From the NCBI RefSeq assembly GCF_900188205.1, contig NZ_FZOH01000003.1, positions 84,539 through 148,538 on the forward strand: a stretch of DNA of 64,000 nt. The letters are read 5' to 3'. The translations under genes were made by a program, and so were the position numbers. This DNA is from Geodermatophilus saharensis (GTDB taxonomy: Bacteria > Actinomycetota > Actinomycetes > Mycobacteriales > Geodermatophilaceae). Shown here one piece after another: positions 4,634-41,251 of the stretch; the first letter of the stretch is position 1, and every line of letters begins with the position of its first letter. The notes under the pieces are model-generated. The model was given only the letters and a program-made list of their open reading frames with translations. It ran no database searches and was not told the origin of the DNA.

Positions 4634-4688
4634 GTGCACTTCCGCGGAAGTGCACCGGACGGGACCGTGCACCTCCGCGGAAGTGCCC
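4634..4688. repeat. Two further copies of the 22-bp palindrome
   Basis: A perfect copy occupies 4634-4655 and a degenerate copy with two changes occupies 4667-4688, with starts 33 bp apart. They begin 25 bp after the sigma factor stop and sit just beyond the stop of the convergent Nudix gene. The repeat cluster therefore appears on both sides of the DGPF/ECF42 cassette. Position between convergent genes fits a bidirectional terminator, but the conserved sequence, not only the stem, suggests something more specific. Confidence 0.85.
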
Positions 4689-38295: not shown

Positions 38296-38739
38296 ATGGC
38301 CACACCCACCACCCCGACCCCCGGTGACGACCGGCGGCCGGAGATGTCGCCGGACGAGAAGCTGATCGCCCAGTGGGAGGCGCAGCACGACGTCGCCGCC
38401 CGCGGGCACCGCGGCGACCCGCTCGGGCTGCAGCGCTCGCTCACCCGCGAGCGCCTCGCCGACTGCGCCCGCCGCGGCGCCACGGCGTCGGGTGCGGGAT
38501 CGTCGCGTGCCGGGGCGTCGCGTGCCGGGGCGTCGCGTGCCGGGGCGTCGCGTGCCGGGGCGTCGGGTGGGGCGGCCGTGCCGCGGCCGGCTCCCGACGA
38601 CGCGGCGGCGGGCATGGGCGAGGGTGACGTGTGCGTGGCGCCGTGGGCCGCCGCCCAGGCCGCCGAGGCCGCCGAGGATCCCGCGCCGGCCCGCCGCCAC
38701 CCGTGGCGGCGGTTCCGGCACCACGCCTCCGAGCACTGA
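38296..38739 (+). CDS. Hydrophilic protein with SRAGA tandem repeats, unknown
   Basis: A 147-residue soluble protein that I do not recognise. The N-terminal half is charged (SPDEKLIAQWEAQHDVAARG), the middle is a tandem repeat of Ser-Arg-Ala-Gly-Ala (about residues 70-89), and the C-terminus ends in a basic stretch (RRHPWRRFRHHASEH). A GGGAGGA ribosome binding site precedes the ATG and codon-position GC bias supports coding. The repeat probably varies between strains without shifting the frame, because the unit is 15 bp. Confidence 0.6.
   Translation: MATPTTPTPGDDRRPEMSPDEKLIAQWEAQHDVAARGHRGDPLGLQRSLTRERLADCARRGATASGAGSSRAGASRAGASRAGASRAGASGGAAVPRPAPDDAAAGMGEGDVCVAPWAAAQAAEAAEDPAPARRHPWRRFRHHASEH
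38503..38562 (+). repeat. 15-bp tandem repeat, four perfect copies
   Basis: TCGCGTGCCGGGGCG occurs four times in a row without a mismatch, inside the preceding coding region, and encodes SRAGA each time. Perfect identity at all codon positions indicates recent slippage rather than selection for amino acids alone. Confidence 0.95.
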
Positions 38740-38800
38740 CGCCCGCCGGTCACCCGGCGCCCCGCCGGCCCGCCGGCCCGCCGGGTCGCCATGTCGATGC

Positions 38801-38913
38801 GGCGACTGGTCGAGGTGTCCGCACGTCGACCAGTCGCCGAGTCGAGTCGTCGGCTCGTCGACCAGTTGCCGAGTCGAGTGGTCCGCACGTCGACCAGTCG
38901 CCGAGTCGAGTCG
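38801..38913. repeat. Three 32-bp direct repeats plus a partial inverted copy
   Basis: Units start at 38818, 38850 and 38882, each exactly 32 bp. The shared core is GTCGACCAGTCGCCGAGTCG. Units one and three are identical; unit two differs at five positions. Directly before unit one, 38801-38817 is an inverted copy of half a unit with one mismatch. The array ends 26 bp before the stop of the DUF222-HNH gene, outside any recognised gene. Its function is unknown; see the findings. Confidence 0.9.
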
Positions 38914-38939
38914 TCCACCGGGCGGCCCTCGAGCACCCC

Positions 38940-40421
38940 TCAGAAGGGCGGTGGGTCGTCGTCCGGGTCGGCCGGCTGGTCCGCGGGCGGTGGGTCGGGT
39001 GCCTTCGGCGGTGGTGGCCGGACGCCCGGTGGCCGGGTGGTCCGGGTGGTGCCCGACGGGGTGGTGACGGTGAGCGTCCCGTCGGGGCTCATCTCGAACC
39101 GCCAGCCGCGGGCACAGGTCTTCACCCGGCGGTGGGAGCGGCACAGGCAACACAGGTTGGCGCAGTCGGTGGCCCCGCCGTGCGCGTGCGGGATGACGTG
39201 GTCGGCGTCGGCCCAGCCGACCCGCTGGCCGCAGGTGGGCATCCGGCAGGTGCGGTCGCGGGTGCGCACGAACGCCTGCTGCTGCGCCGAGGGTGTGTAG
39301 CCGTCCCTGCTCGCCGGCCGGTCGAGCACCGTGCACCCGCAGTCGCCGTCGGGGTGGTGAGGGCAACCCCGTTGAGCCAGCCTCCGCAGCCGGTCCAGCG
39401 TCGCGGTGGCCCGCAGCGTGCCGTCGTCGGTGAGCGTCACCGTCACCGACCTGCCCTCGGGCGCCTGCACCCCCAGCGCGTCCAACTCGCGCAGCAGCTC
39501 GCGCAGGTGCGCGGCGGTGATCGGGAACCCGTTCACCTCCCCGGCCTGCGCCGACCGCCCGGCCAGCGACGCCAGCGTGGCGACGATCTGCAGGTGCGCC
39601 GTCACCGCCGTCCCCGTCTGCCACGGCCGCTGCAGCAGGTCGGCGAACACGGCGGTGCGCAGCTGCCCGATCGGGCGCGGATCGCCGTCGGCCTTGAGCA
39701 TCCGGGCGAGGGCGTCGACGGTCGTCTGGCAGGCGGCGGCCACGTCGGTGGGCAGGTCGGCGGCGATGGTGCTCATCCCGTCGGACGGCGATGGGTAGAC
39801 CCGCACGTCCGAGCGCCGCTCGGCGGTCTTGCGCCGCTGGTCGACCGCGTCGGCGTCGGCTTCGAGCAGCAGTTCGATCGCCCGCTTCTTGAGCCGCCCG
39901 ACGGTCAGGGCGGTGGCGTCGGGCAGCACGGCGGCCTCGATGCGCCAGGCGAGGGCGGGGTCGGTGTGCTGCAGCACGTCGACCAGTGCCTTGGCGCGGG
40001 CCTCGTCGAGGTCGCCGGCGGTCAGGGCGGCCCAGGTGGCGGGCAGGCGCTCGCGGTAGGTCCAGGCGCGGGTGGCCAGGTGGTCGGCGGTACCGCGGCC
40101 GCAGTTGAGGATCACGGCCAGCTCGGCGGTGCAGAACTTCGACACCCCGGGCAGCTCGGTGTCGGGCTTGCACGACCGCGCACCGGGCGTGCCCGGCGCG
40201 GGGTCGCCGTCATCGGGAGAGTCGTCGGCCAGGGCGAGGACCAGTTCGGCCTCGTAGGCGGCGGTCATCGCCTGGCGGGCCTGCAGGCGCTGCAGCTCGG
40301 CGGCCTTCTGCTCCCGCGACGACACCCCCACCGGCAGCCGCGGCACCGTCACCGGCCGCGCGAGCAGCAACCCGGCGAGCGCCCGCTCCACGGGTGGCAC
40401 GTACTCCGCGACCTCCTGCAC
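38940..40421 (-). CDS. DUF222 / HNH endonuclease domain protein
   Basis: A 493-residue protein with the two-part layout typical of actinobacteria: an N-terminal helical DUF222 domain (about residues 40-330; CTAELAVILNCGRGTADHLATRAW) and a C-terminal HNH nuclease. The nuclease shows CRMPTCGQRVGWADADHVIPHAHGG and CLCRSHHRV-like cysteines and histidines (here CLCRSHRRVK), so the metal site looks intact apart from one His to Arg change. The proline-rich tail is disordered. These genes occur in many copies per genome and may be selfish or defence-related; function is unproven. The GTG start is likely. Confidence 0.9.
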   Translation of the reverse strand: MQEVAEYVPPVERALAGLLLARPVTVPRLPVGVSSREQKAAELQRLQARQAMTAAYEAELVLALADDSPDDGDPAPGTPGARSCKPDTELPGVSKFCTAELAVILNCGRGTADHLATRAWTYRERLPATWAALTAGDLDEARAKALVDVLQHTDPALAWRIEAAVLPDATALTVGRLKKRAIELLLEADADAVDQRRKTAERRSDVRVYPSPSDGMSTIAADLPTDVAAACQTTVDALARMLKADGDPRPIGQLRTAVFADLLQRPWQTGTAVTAHLQIVATLASLAGRSAQAGEVNGFPITAAHLRELLRELDALGVQAPEGRSVTVTLTDDGTLRATATLDRLRRLAQRGCPHHPDGDCGCTVLDRPASRDGYTPSAQQQAFVRTRDRTCRMPTCGQRVGWADADHVIPHAHGGATDCANLCCLCRSHRRVKTCARGWRFEMSPDGTLTVTTPSGTTRTTRPPGVRPPPPKAPDPPPADQPADPDDDPPPF

Positions 40422-40566
40422 GACCCCGAACCTACGGGCGGGTGTGACAGTTCTCGCAGGTCAGCGGCCCAGATCCCGCTGCTGGGCAGGAACGGGGCCG
40501 GCCGTCACCCCGGACTGTGGGGGAGGCGTGGGTGCGCTGTAGGTGTCCCGTGCCGGGGGCCGCCGA

Positions 40567-40572
40567 CAGGCT
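40567..40572 (+). promoter_or_regulatory. -10-like hexamer of the hemerythrin gene
   Basis: CAGGCT lies exactly seven bases before the ATG at 40580. With no Shine-Dalgarno sequence in the gap, transcription is predicted to begin at the start codon. Confidence 0.4.
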
Positions 40573-40579
40573 CACCGCC

Positions 40580-41251
40580 ATGACCGACACCGCCCCCGCC
40601 CCCGTCCCGATGGCCGACGTCCGCGACATGTACGTCGTCCACCGCGCCTTCCGGCGCGAGTTCCGGCTGCTGCCCGAGCTGATCCGCGCCGTCGCACCGG
40701 GGGACACCGACCGCGCCGCCGTCCTCGCCGCCCACGCCCGCCTGGTGCTGCTCGGCCTGCACATGCACCACACCGGCGAGGACGACCTCCTGTGGCCCAA
40801 GCTGCTGGAGCGCTGCCCGCCCGACGCCGCGGTCGTCCACCGCATGGAGGCCCAGCACGAGCAGGTCGAGCACCTCACCGAGCAGCTCGGCCCGGCCCTG
40901 GACCGCTGGGAGGTCGAGGCCCGGCCGGCCGTGGCCGAGGAGGTCGCCGGCACCCTCGACGCGCTGCGCGCCGTCCTGCTCGAGCACCTCGCGGAGGAGG
41001 AGCGCGAGATCCTCCCGCTGGCCGAGCGGCACGTCACGCAGGAGGAGTGGGCTCAGCTCGGCCAGCACGGCGAGGGCACGATGGCCAAGAAGGACCTGCC
41101 GATCCTGTTCGGCGCGCTGCTCGAGGAGTGCAGCCCCGAGGAGCGGGAGATGATGCTGCACGTCGTCCCGTTCCCGGTCCGCGTCCTGCTCCGCACCGTC
41201 TTCGCCCGGCAGTACCGCCGCTACGCCGGCCGGGTGCGCGGGACCCGCTGA
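40580..41251 (+). CDS. Hemerythrin HHE domain protein
   Basis: A 223-residue four-helix-bundle protein that should bind a di-iron centre. Metal ligands are suggested by VVHRAFRREF, HMHHTGEDDLLWP, HRMEAQHEQVEHL and LLEHLAEEEREILP, the last being the H..EE signature. Roles in the family include oxygen or nitric-oxide sensing and iron-repair chemistry. The C-terminal 60 residues (MMLHVVPFPVRVLLRTVF) form an extra hydrophobic helix. Its 3' end overlaps the convergent XRE-ATPase gene by 31 bp. Confidence 0.88.
   Translation: MTDTAPAPVPMADVRDMYVVHRAFRREFRLLPELIRAVAPGDTDRAAVLAAHARLVLLGLHMHHTGEDDLLWPKLLERCPPDAAVVHRMEAQHEQVEHLTEQLGPALDRWEVEARPAVAEEVAGTLDALRAVLLEHLAEEEREILPLAERHVTQEEWAQLGQHGEGTMAKKDLPILFGALLEECSPEEREMMLHVVPFPVRVLLRTVFARQYRRYAGRVRGTR

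Follow-up and report, generated by a model that had tools for sequence, protein, structure and literature searches.

Between the 3' ends of a small gene and a convergent DUF222-HNH gene, the window (the whole stretch of 64,000 nucleotides that was analysed) contains a block of short tandem repeats. The locus raises the question of whether this block belongs to the DUF222-HNH gene, as its insertion target or its terminal part, or represents a class of repeats separate from that gene. The features of the region are as follows, with positions in the window.

38296..38739, + strand: small gene upstream of the array, with its stop codon 45 bp before the array
38753..38784, strand (.): GC-rich 8-bp CCCGCCGG repeat directly upstream of the array, a possible conventional hairpin
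38785..38928, strand (.): 8-bp array of 18 in-register units, consensus GTCGNNNN, array model score 106.5
38794..38813, - strand: inverted copy of the 20-bp core, predicted to form a long hairpin with the direct copies
38809..38916, + strand: 32-bp higher-order repeat of four 8-bp units (TRF: period 32, 3.4 copies, score 174)
38940..40421, - strand: DUF222-HNH (13E12-type) gene, 493 aa, adjoining the array and outside it; PF02720 57.7 bits (cut-off 24.4)
40422..40468, - strand: conserved left end of the HNH unit (TGACCTGCGRGAACTGTCGTACCCCG..CGTAGGTTCG), the right end being the stop codon at 38940
40550..41251, + strand: hemerythrin-domain gene, the anchor used to find the orthologous locus in relatives

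Structure of the repeat in the window

The array fills most of a 200-bp gap between the convergent genes 38296-38739 (+) and 38940-40421 (-). The first-pass annotation had correctly placed it outside genes, and its distance from the HNH stop codon was measured as 11 bp rather than the 26 bp given there. Units 1 to 9 are, in order, GTCGCCAT GTCGATGC GGCGACTG GTCGAGGT GTCCGCAC GTCGACCA GTCGCCGA GTCGAGTC GTCGGCTC, and units 10 to 18 are GTCGACCA GTTGCCGA GTCGAGTG GTCCGCAC GTCGACCA GTCGCCGA GTCGAGTC GTCCACCG GGCGGCCC. The core of the GTCGNNNN unit is GTCG[A/C/G]C.

The 32-bp repeat reported for this place was confirmed by TRF, and dinucleotide shuffles of the window gave 0 occurrences of the pattern of its 20-bp core, TCGACCAGTCGCCGAGTCGA, which starts at 38826, 38858 and 38890 (+). 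The period of 32 bp holds for the higher-order repeat, which is a recent duplication of four units, but the basic period is 8 bp, as was recognised by reading the orthologous gap in relatives. The half-unit inverted copy that had been described is likewise present at 38794-38813, but it is a consequence of the palindromic GTCGAC core, because a tandem series with GTCGAC every 8 bp also reads as an inverted repeat. A CRISPR array was rejected, the units being head to tail without spacers, and so was a coding repeat, since neither 8 nor 32 is divisible by 3 and the repeats are intergenic. No match to an Rfam structured RNA reached the gathering score. Inside the small gene 38296-38739, a 15-bp in-frame tandem repeat (GGCGTCGCGTGCCGG, ~5.7 copies) was observed at 38484-38569; it encodes an Ala/Ser/Arg-rich stretch outside the part of this gene that is matched in relatives.

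Next, the rarity of the unit in its own genome was determined. With up to 3 mismatches allowed, the 20-bp core was found in the array and at no other site of the 4.9-Mb genome. When scored with a position-weight model whose training arrays lay away from HNH genes, the array reached 106.5; within 1.26 Mb sampled from this genome, the next-best stretch near a gene reached 22.5. The search for the exact unit at the 3' edge of other DUF222-HNH genes, which had been proposed as a check, showed that it is absent from the other DUF222 genes of the genome; it was also absent from the HNH loci of 36 relatives. The array was accordingly rejected as a mark of all DUF222 genes.

Two further palindromic repeats were seen in this genome. 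An intergenic palindrome class, GTGCACTTCCGCGGAAGTGCAC, occurs in the window at 2841-2928 and 4634-4686 and elsewhere at L102:1637-1702, L127:6566-6663 and L078:4424-4479; its copies frequently follow genes and are spaced by 31, 32 or 42 bp. The shared 32-bp period had been taken to recall the GTGCACTTCCGCGGAAGTGCAC palindrome flanking ECF42; this likeness is probably coincidental, and the link was rejected on the other spacings of the palindrome (31 and 42 bp). The other repeat, GTCGAGATCACGTGATCTCGAC, is a palindromic array that recurs every 42 bp in an intergenic gap at L097:5506-5609.

Distribution and probable turnover of GTCGN4 arrays

Of 115 Geodermatophilaceae genomes, 46 contained five consecutive GTCGN4 units, and 9 matched the reversed-pattern control; the assignment to this family is based on those relatives of the HNH gene that have names, Geodermatophilus and Blastococcus. 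In an order-wide sample of 399 genomes, the pattern was matched in 36/77 family members and 49/322 outsiders, and about 50 outsiders matched the reversed control (counted by rows). Outside the family GTCGN4 is thus no commoner than its control, and the family stands out. The outside matches were, among those listed, pure or nearly pure 8-bp microsatellites. Most arrays of the family are degenerate, with the core kept and the remaining letters varying from unit to unit (at least 60% distinct units in 38 of about 50 arrays), while some loci carry a pure 8-bp repeat (GTCGGTGC x12). The 8-bp register and the consensus were recovered from 38 arrays. Over 59 distinct arrays, the information content was 0.96, 1.59, 1.15 and 1.04 bits for G-T-C-G, 0.63 and 0.55 bits for positions 5-6, and 0.16 and 0.28 bits for positions 7-8. 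As judged from these genomes, arrays with a common grammar and differing sequence are a feature of Geodermatophilaceae. No description of them was found in the searchable literature, the coverage of which leaves out many subscription journals.

The position of the arrays with respect to genes was analysed using gene ends that are codon-usage predictions, not curated annotation. All of about 50 exact-pattern arrays were intergenic except one, which lies inside a predicted gene. Around 55 distinct degenerate arrays, the gene 3' ends facing an array (n=61) had a median gap of 18 bp and 36 of them were within 25 bp, whereas the 5' ends facing an array (n=43) had a median gap of 165 bp, with 4 within 25 bp. 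Convergent gaps were 3.3-fold over-represented (p=9e-4, with this genome's gaps of at least 70 bp as baseline) and divergent gaps under-represented; divergent gene pairs flank 9 of 49 two-sided arrays. The neighbours of most arrays are genes other than HNH.

Arrays recur at orthologous places with different letters. Behind a conserved VWA_CoxE gene, an array starts within 160 bp of the stop codon in 21 of 70 family genomes from at least four genera, in many cases at 0-20 bp. The unit sequences at this locus all differ, no unit order or number is common to any two distant species, and 16-bp higher-order units are present in some arrays. A second conserved gene, ending RYAF*, is followed by an array in seven genomes of four genera, and the array is absent behind most orthologous genes. 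In genome G025 (L253), a DDE-type transposase gene was observed between the VWA_CoxE gene and the array, with the transposase 3' end 31 bp from the array.

Constraint on the core was measured in the twelve orthologous pairs that still align; an all-against-all comparison was dropped for mixing non-orthologous arrays. Substitutions affected 29/424 core positions and 88/426 of the other four positions (odds ratio 0.28, p=4e-9), a difference that is partly conditioned because the arrays were found by containing GTCG. In the alignment of the window's locus from this genome (G000) and relatives G047 and G051, invariant columns recur at GNCG every 8 bp, and a gap of one whole 8-bp unit parts G047 from the other two. 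Copy number thus changes by whole units here, as in VNTR minisatellites, and unit numbers also differ at the VWA_CoxE locus; from such whole-unit differences we infer turnover between units by slippage or recombination.

The best explanation, which seems likely rather than assured, would be a family-wide set of hypervariable intergenic 3'-end arrays in which the 8-bp register is fixed and GTCG hardly varies, the HNH unit being a separate entity. A purely mutational minisatellite, in which functionless 8-bp tracts grow by slippage and stay intergenic since they would break reading frames, would account for the pure repeats at some loci, for the duplication turnover indicated by the 16- and 32-bp higher-order units and the whole-unit gaps, and for the absence from genes, which is expected of any non-triplet repeat. 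However, it leaves unexplained why GTCG is retained while the other four letters change, why one core occurs at unrelated loci in a single family only, and why the position is behind stop codons and not before starts, and we consider it doubtful.

Relation to the DUF222-HNH unit

The gene at 38940..40421 carries an HNH domain (PF01844) at 20.4 bits, just below the cut-off of 21.4, beside its DUF222 match. Dozens of DUF222-HNH copies, within and between genomes, were homologous only within a stretch that opens ~45 bp ahead of the start codon and closes with the stop codon. Because this homology stops at the stop codon and the flanks are unrelated, the gene behaves as a unit of about 1.53 kb that is mobile or proliferates, with the array just beyond its right end; the sharp unit ends bear out the earlier suggestion of a mobile or selfish gene. 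A plasmid source for the HNH gene was rejected, as no close match to it was found among plasmids. The upstream flank of one HNH copy of Blastococcus TF02A-26 (L033) matches L032 of strain URHD0036 and its downstream flank matches L041, another URHD0036 contig, a mosaic which suggests either that dispersed HNH copies have recombined or that the assembly is broken within the repeat.

At the hemerythrin locus, to which the window's array belongs, array and HNH occur together in G051 and this genome; G047 has the array but lacks HNH, and both are missing from G042, G043 and G048. An array is therefore kept at the orthologous place in a relative lacking the HNH gene, a result that had been named beforehand as one speaking against a tie between the two; if the array were a homing-endonuclease recognition site, empty alleles would carry it intact, as G047 does but G042, G043 and G048 do not. 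The HNH copies of G000 and G051 each cluster with copies of their own genome (100/100 support each), which means either that HNH was inserted twice next to a single old array or that gene conversion took place later. The species order was not resolved by the hemerythrin-gene tree. A 2026 preprint on gene conversion in M. tuberculosis (PMC13061034) reportedly mentions REP13E12. Two observations were made on the relatives at this locus. In G047 (L216:1993-2529), a small gene (MSQDAPEVALTRAELRAVAGF...), whose product resembles an immunity-type protein by eye, is found in place of HNH, between the small gene and the array. In G051 (L217:2575-4130), the HNH gene is frameshifted into two frames, and the array persists beside this probably broken gene.

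The association of arrays with HNH 3' ends was then quantified. Arrays were present in 5/62 HNH 3' flanks (the window's own copy included), 0/62 HNH 5' flanks and 0/1135 other gene 3' flanks, the last taken from this genome alone (Fisher 3e-7). TTCTGA, the usual HNH end, followed by three in-phase cores within 24 bp was found in 15/115 genomes and 0 times for the reversed control; about half of these cases are at HNH ends, and seven of the 15 show the RYAF* gene instead. By our own count there are roughly ten independent HNH-array pairings, and the array edge is 0-13 bp from the HNH stop codon in many copies. Two HNH copies that occupy separate loci of a single Blastococcus genome are homologous to 64 bp past the stop codon, array included, so here the array travelled with HNH. 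For five Geodermatophilus genomes with a common HNH and array, longer flanks revealed a single inherited locus, and joint movement was rejected; at this locus, HNH has decayed and the array persists in two genomes. Arrays persist beside decayed HNH genes in G049, G057 and G098.

The tie to the HNH unit proposed in the first-pass annotation was thus upheld in part: the HNH 3' edge is a preferred site of arrays, but the array is not a mark of the unit. A distribution mainly away from DUF222 genes, foreseen as an outcome that would count against the tie, is largely what was found. The array does not appear to characterise the HNH unit, even though arrays are drawn to or carried by HNH 3' ends; HNH units adjoin them and occasionally carry them.

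Two readings would bind the array more closely to the HNH unit. In the first, the array is a recognition or landing site against which the unit inserts with its stop-codon end, and the enrichment of arrays at HNH 3' ends, the short distances from the stop codon and the DDE transposase gene that also abuts an array in G025 agree with it. The array without HNH in G047, together with the separate genome-specific clades of the G000 and G051 copies, is likewise as expected of two insertions, but gene conversion among copies also yields such clades. Moreover, 92% of the HNH copies examined lack an array, most arrays stand without an HNH gene, ordinary gene 3' ends are equally close to arrays, and the left side of the HNH unit bears no array remnant; this reading is rather unlikely. 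The second takes the array for the 3' terminus of the HNH unit, remaining as a scar after HNH loss, as the Blastococcus pair and the arrays outlasting decayed HNH genes would suggest. It is made improbable by the generic homology of the unit, which in dozens of copies runs precisely to the stop codon and no further, by the five Geodermatophilus genomes, in which inheritance of an orthologous locus replaces joint movement, and by the arrays at non-HNH loci in several genera, where no HNH trace was found nearby. Finally, although GTCG is a common word in GC-rich genomes, an artefact of chance or composition is scarcely credible, being already refuted by the shuffles (0), the reversed patterns (far fewer or none) and the background maximum (22.5 against 106.5).

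In summary, the sequences show the 8-bp register, the conservation of the core, the post-stop position, the restriction to the family, the independence from HNH and the enrichment at HNH 3' ends.

Folding, possible role and known repeats

The predicted folding of the array region of the window exceeded that of shuffles with z -3.58 on the + strand and -1.85 on the - strand. The VWA_CoxE 3' flanks gave a mean z of -1.81 with an array and -0.82 without (p=0.015). Compared with random draws of their own units, the arrays had a mean z of -0.44, with 7/59 below -2. Hairpin formation is not clearly the selected property, because folding beyond the unit pattern is weak. As in intrinsic terminators, a hairpin is predicted just downstream of the stop codon; no T-run that would give a run of U after the stem was found in 38785-38940.

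According to the hypervariable-array explanation, arrays are placed directly behind stop codons and would change in length by duplication and deletion of whole units (8, 16 or 32 bp), with the core kept while the four other letters drift. The array transcript may fold into hairpins, because GTCGAC is self-complementary and GTCGCC and GGCGAC pair with each other. The most likely role would be that of a 3'-end element, either a terminator, a transcript-end stabiliser or a multi-site landing pad, for which a candidate protein would read GTCG every 8 bp. In some lineages, the HNH unit may have acquired an array as its own 3' end and carry it along. A hairpin-forming transcript-end or protein-binding function is therefore what we infer as probable. 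The 9 of 49 two-sided arrays between divergent genes speak against a 3'-end role, being odd for a terminator, and the lack of an array behind most orthologous genes also counts against the explanation. A repeated DNA-binding site is a version equally live as the hairpin 3'-end element, because units drawn at random from an array fold almost as well as the array itself and nine arrays are flanked by divergent gene pairs. As a bolder and tentative proposal, itself unlikely, the arrays could be a degenerate 8-bp code GTCGNNNN behind genes, read by a putative repeat-binding protein or RNA-processing factor, with the locus rewritten and the register kept, and with DUF222-HNH using the arrays as landing pads.

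A core kept every 8 bp with all else turning over, at the same loci across genera, points to a sequence-specific process or binder, none of which is described in the searchable literature. The loci also amount to a natural experiment, since arrays are present behind some orthologous genes and missing behind others, and likewise for a mobile nuclease gene; whether arrays act in transcript ends or in HNH insertion can thus be addressed directly.

Short, lineage-restricted intergenic direct repeats at many loci, for which regulator binding has been proposed, are known as the STRR heptamers of cyanobacteria and the TAACTGA repeats of Beggiatoaceae (PMC4679880). Those repeats consist of a fixed 7-bp word and are in Beggiatoaceae mostly just upstream of start codons, whereas the arrays described here have an 8-bp period, only about half of the unit constant, and a position after stop codons. 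REP/BIME palindromic elements are known insertion targets of certain IS elements (PMC1525189), and like our arrays they are intergenic, have a palindromic core and lie near gene 3' ends beside mobile genes. The GTCGAC core makes the unit here an extragenic palindrome as well, but REPs are dispersed copies of one sequence, whereas no dispersed near-identical copies were found here: each array has its own sequence, and the window's unit is unique in its genome.

Bacterial VNTR/MIRU minisatellites consist of near-identical tandem units. Units are gained and lost between species in both cases; however, the units within an array are not near-identical here, and what stays constant across loci and genera is the register and the 4-bp core, the remaining letters drifting. 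In actinobacteria, intrinsic terminators that lack a U-run have been described. They share with the arrays a GC-rich hairpin potential after stop codons and an enrichment between convergent genes; to our knowledge, they have no conserved 8-bp grammar.

REP13E12 / DUF222-HNH is a repeated element of Mycobacterium tuberculosis according to Gordon et al. 1999, as cited in PMC10589994. The likeness is to the neighbouring gene, which is of the same protein family and forms a multi-copy repeated unit, and the array itself merely adjoins; it is not part of the sequence common to the DUF222-HNH copies, with the exception of the two Blastococcus copies, which share 64 bp more. The class of arrays resembles short intergenic repeats and REP elements, yet departs from the defining features of each.
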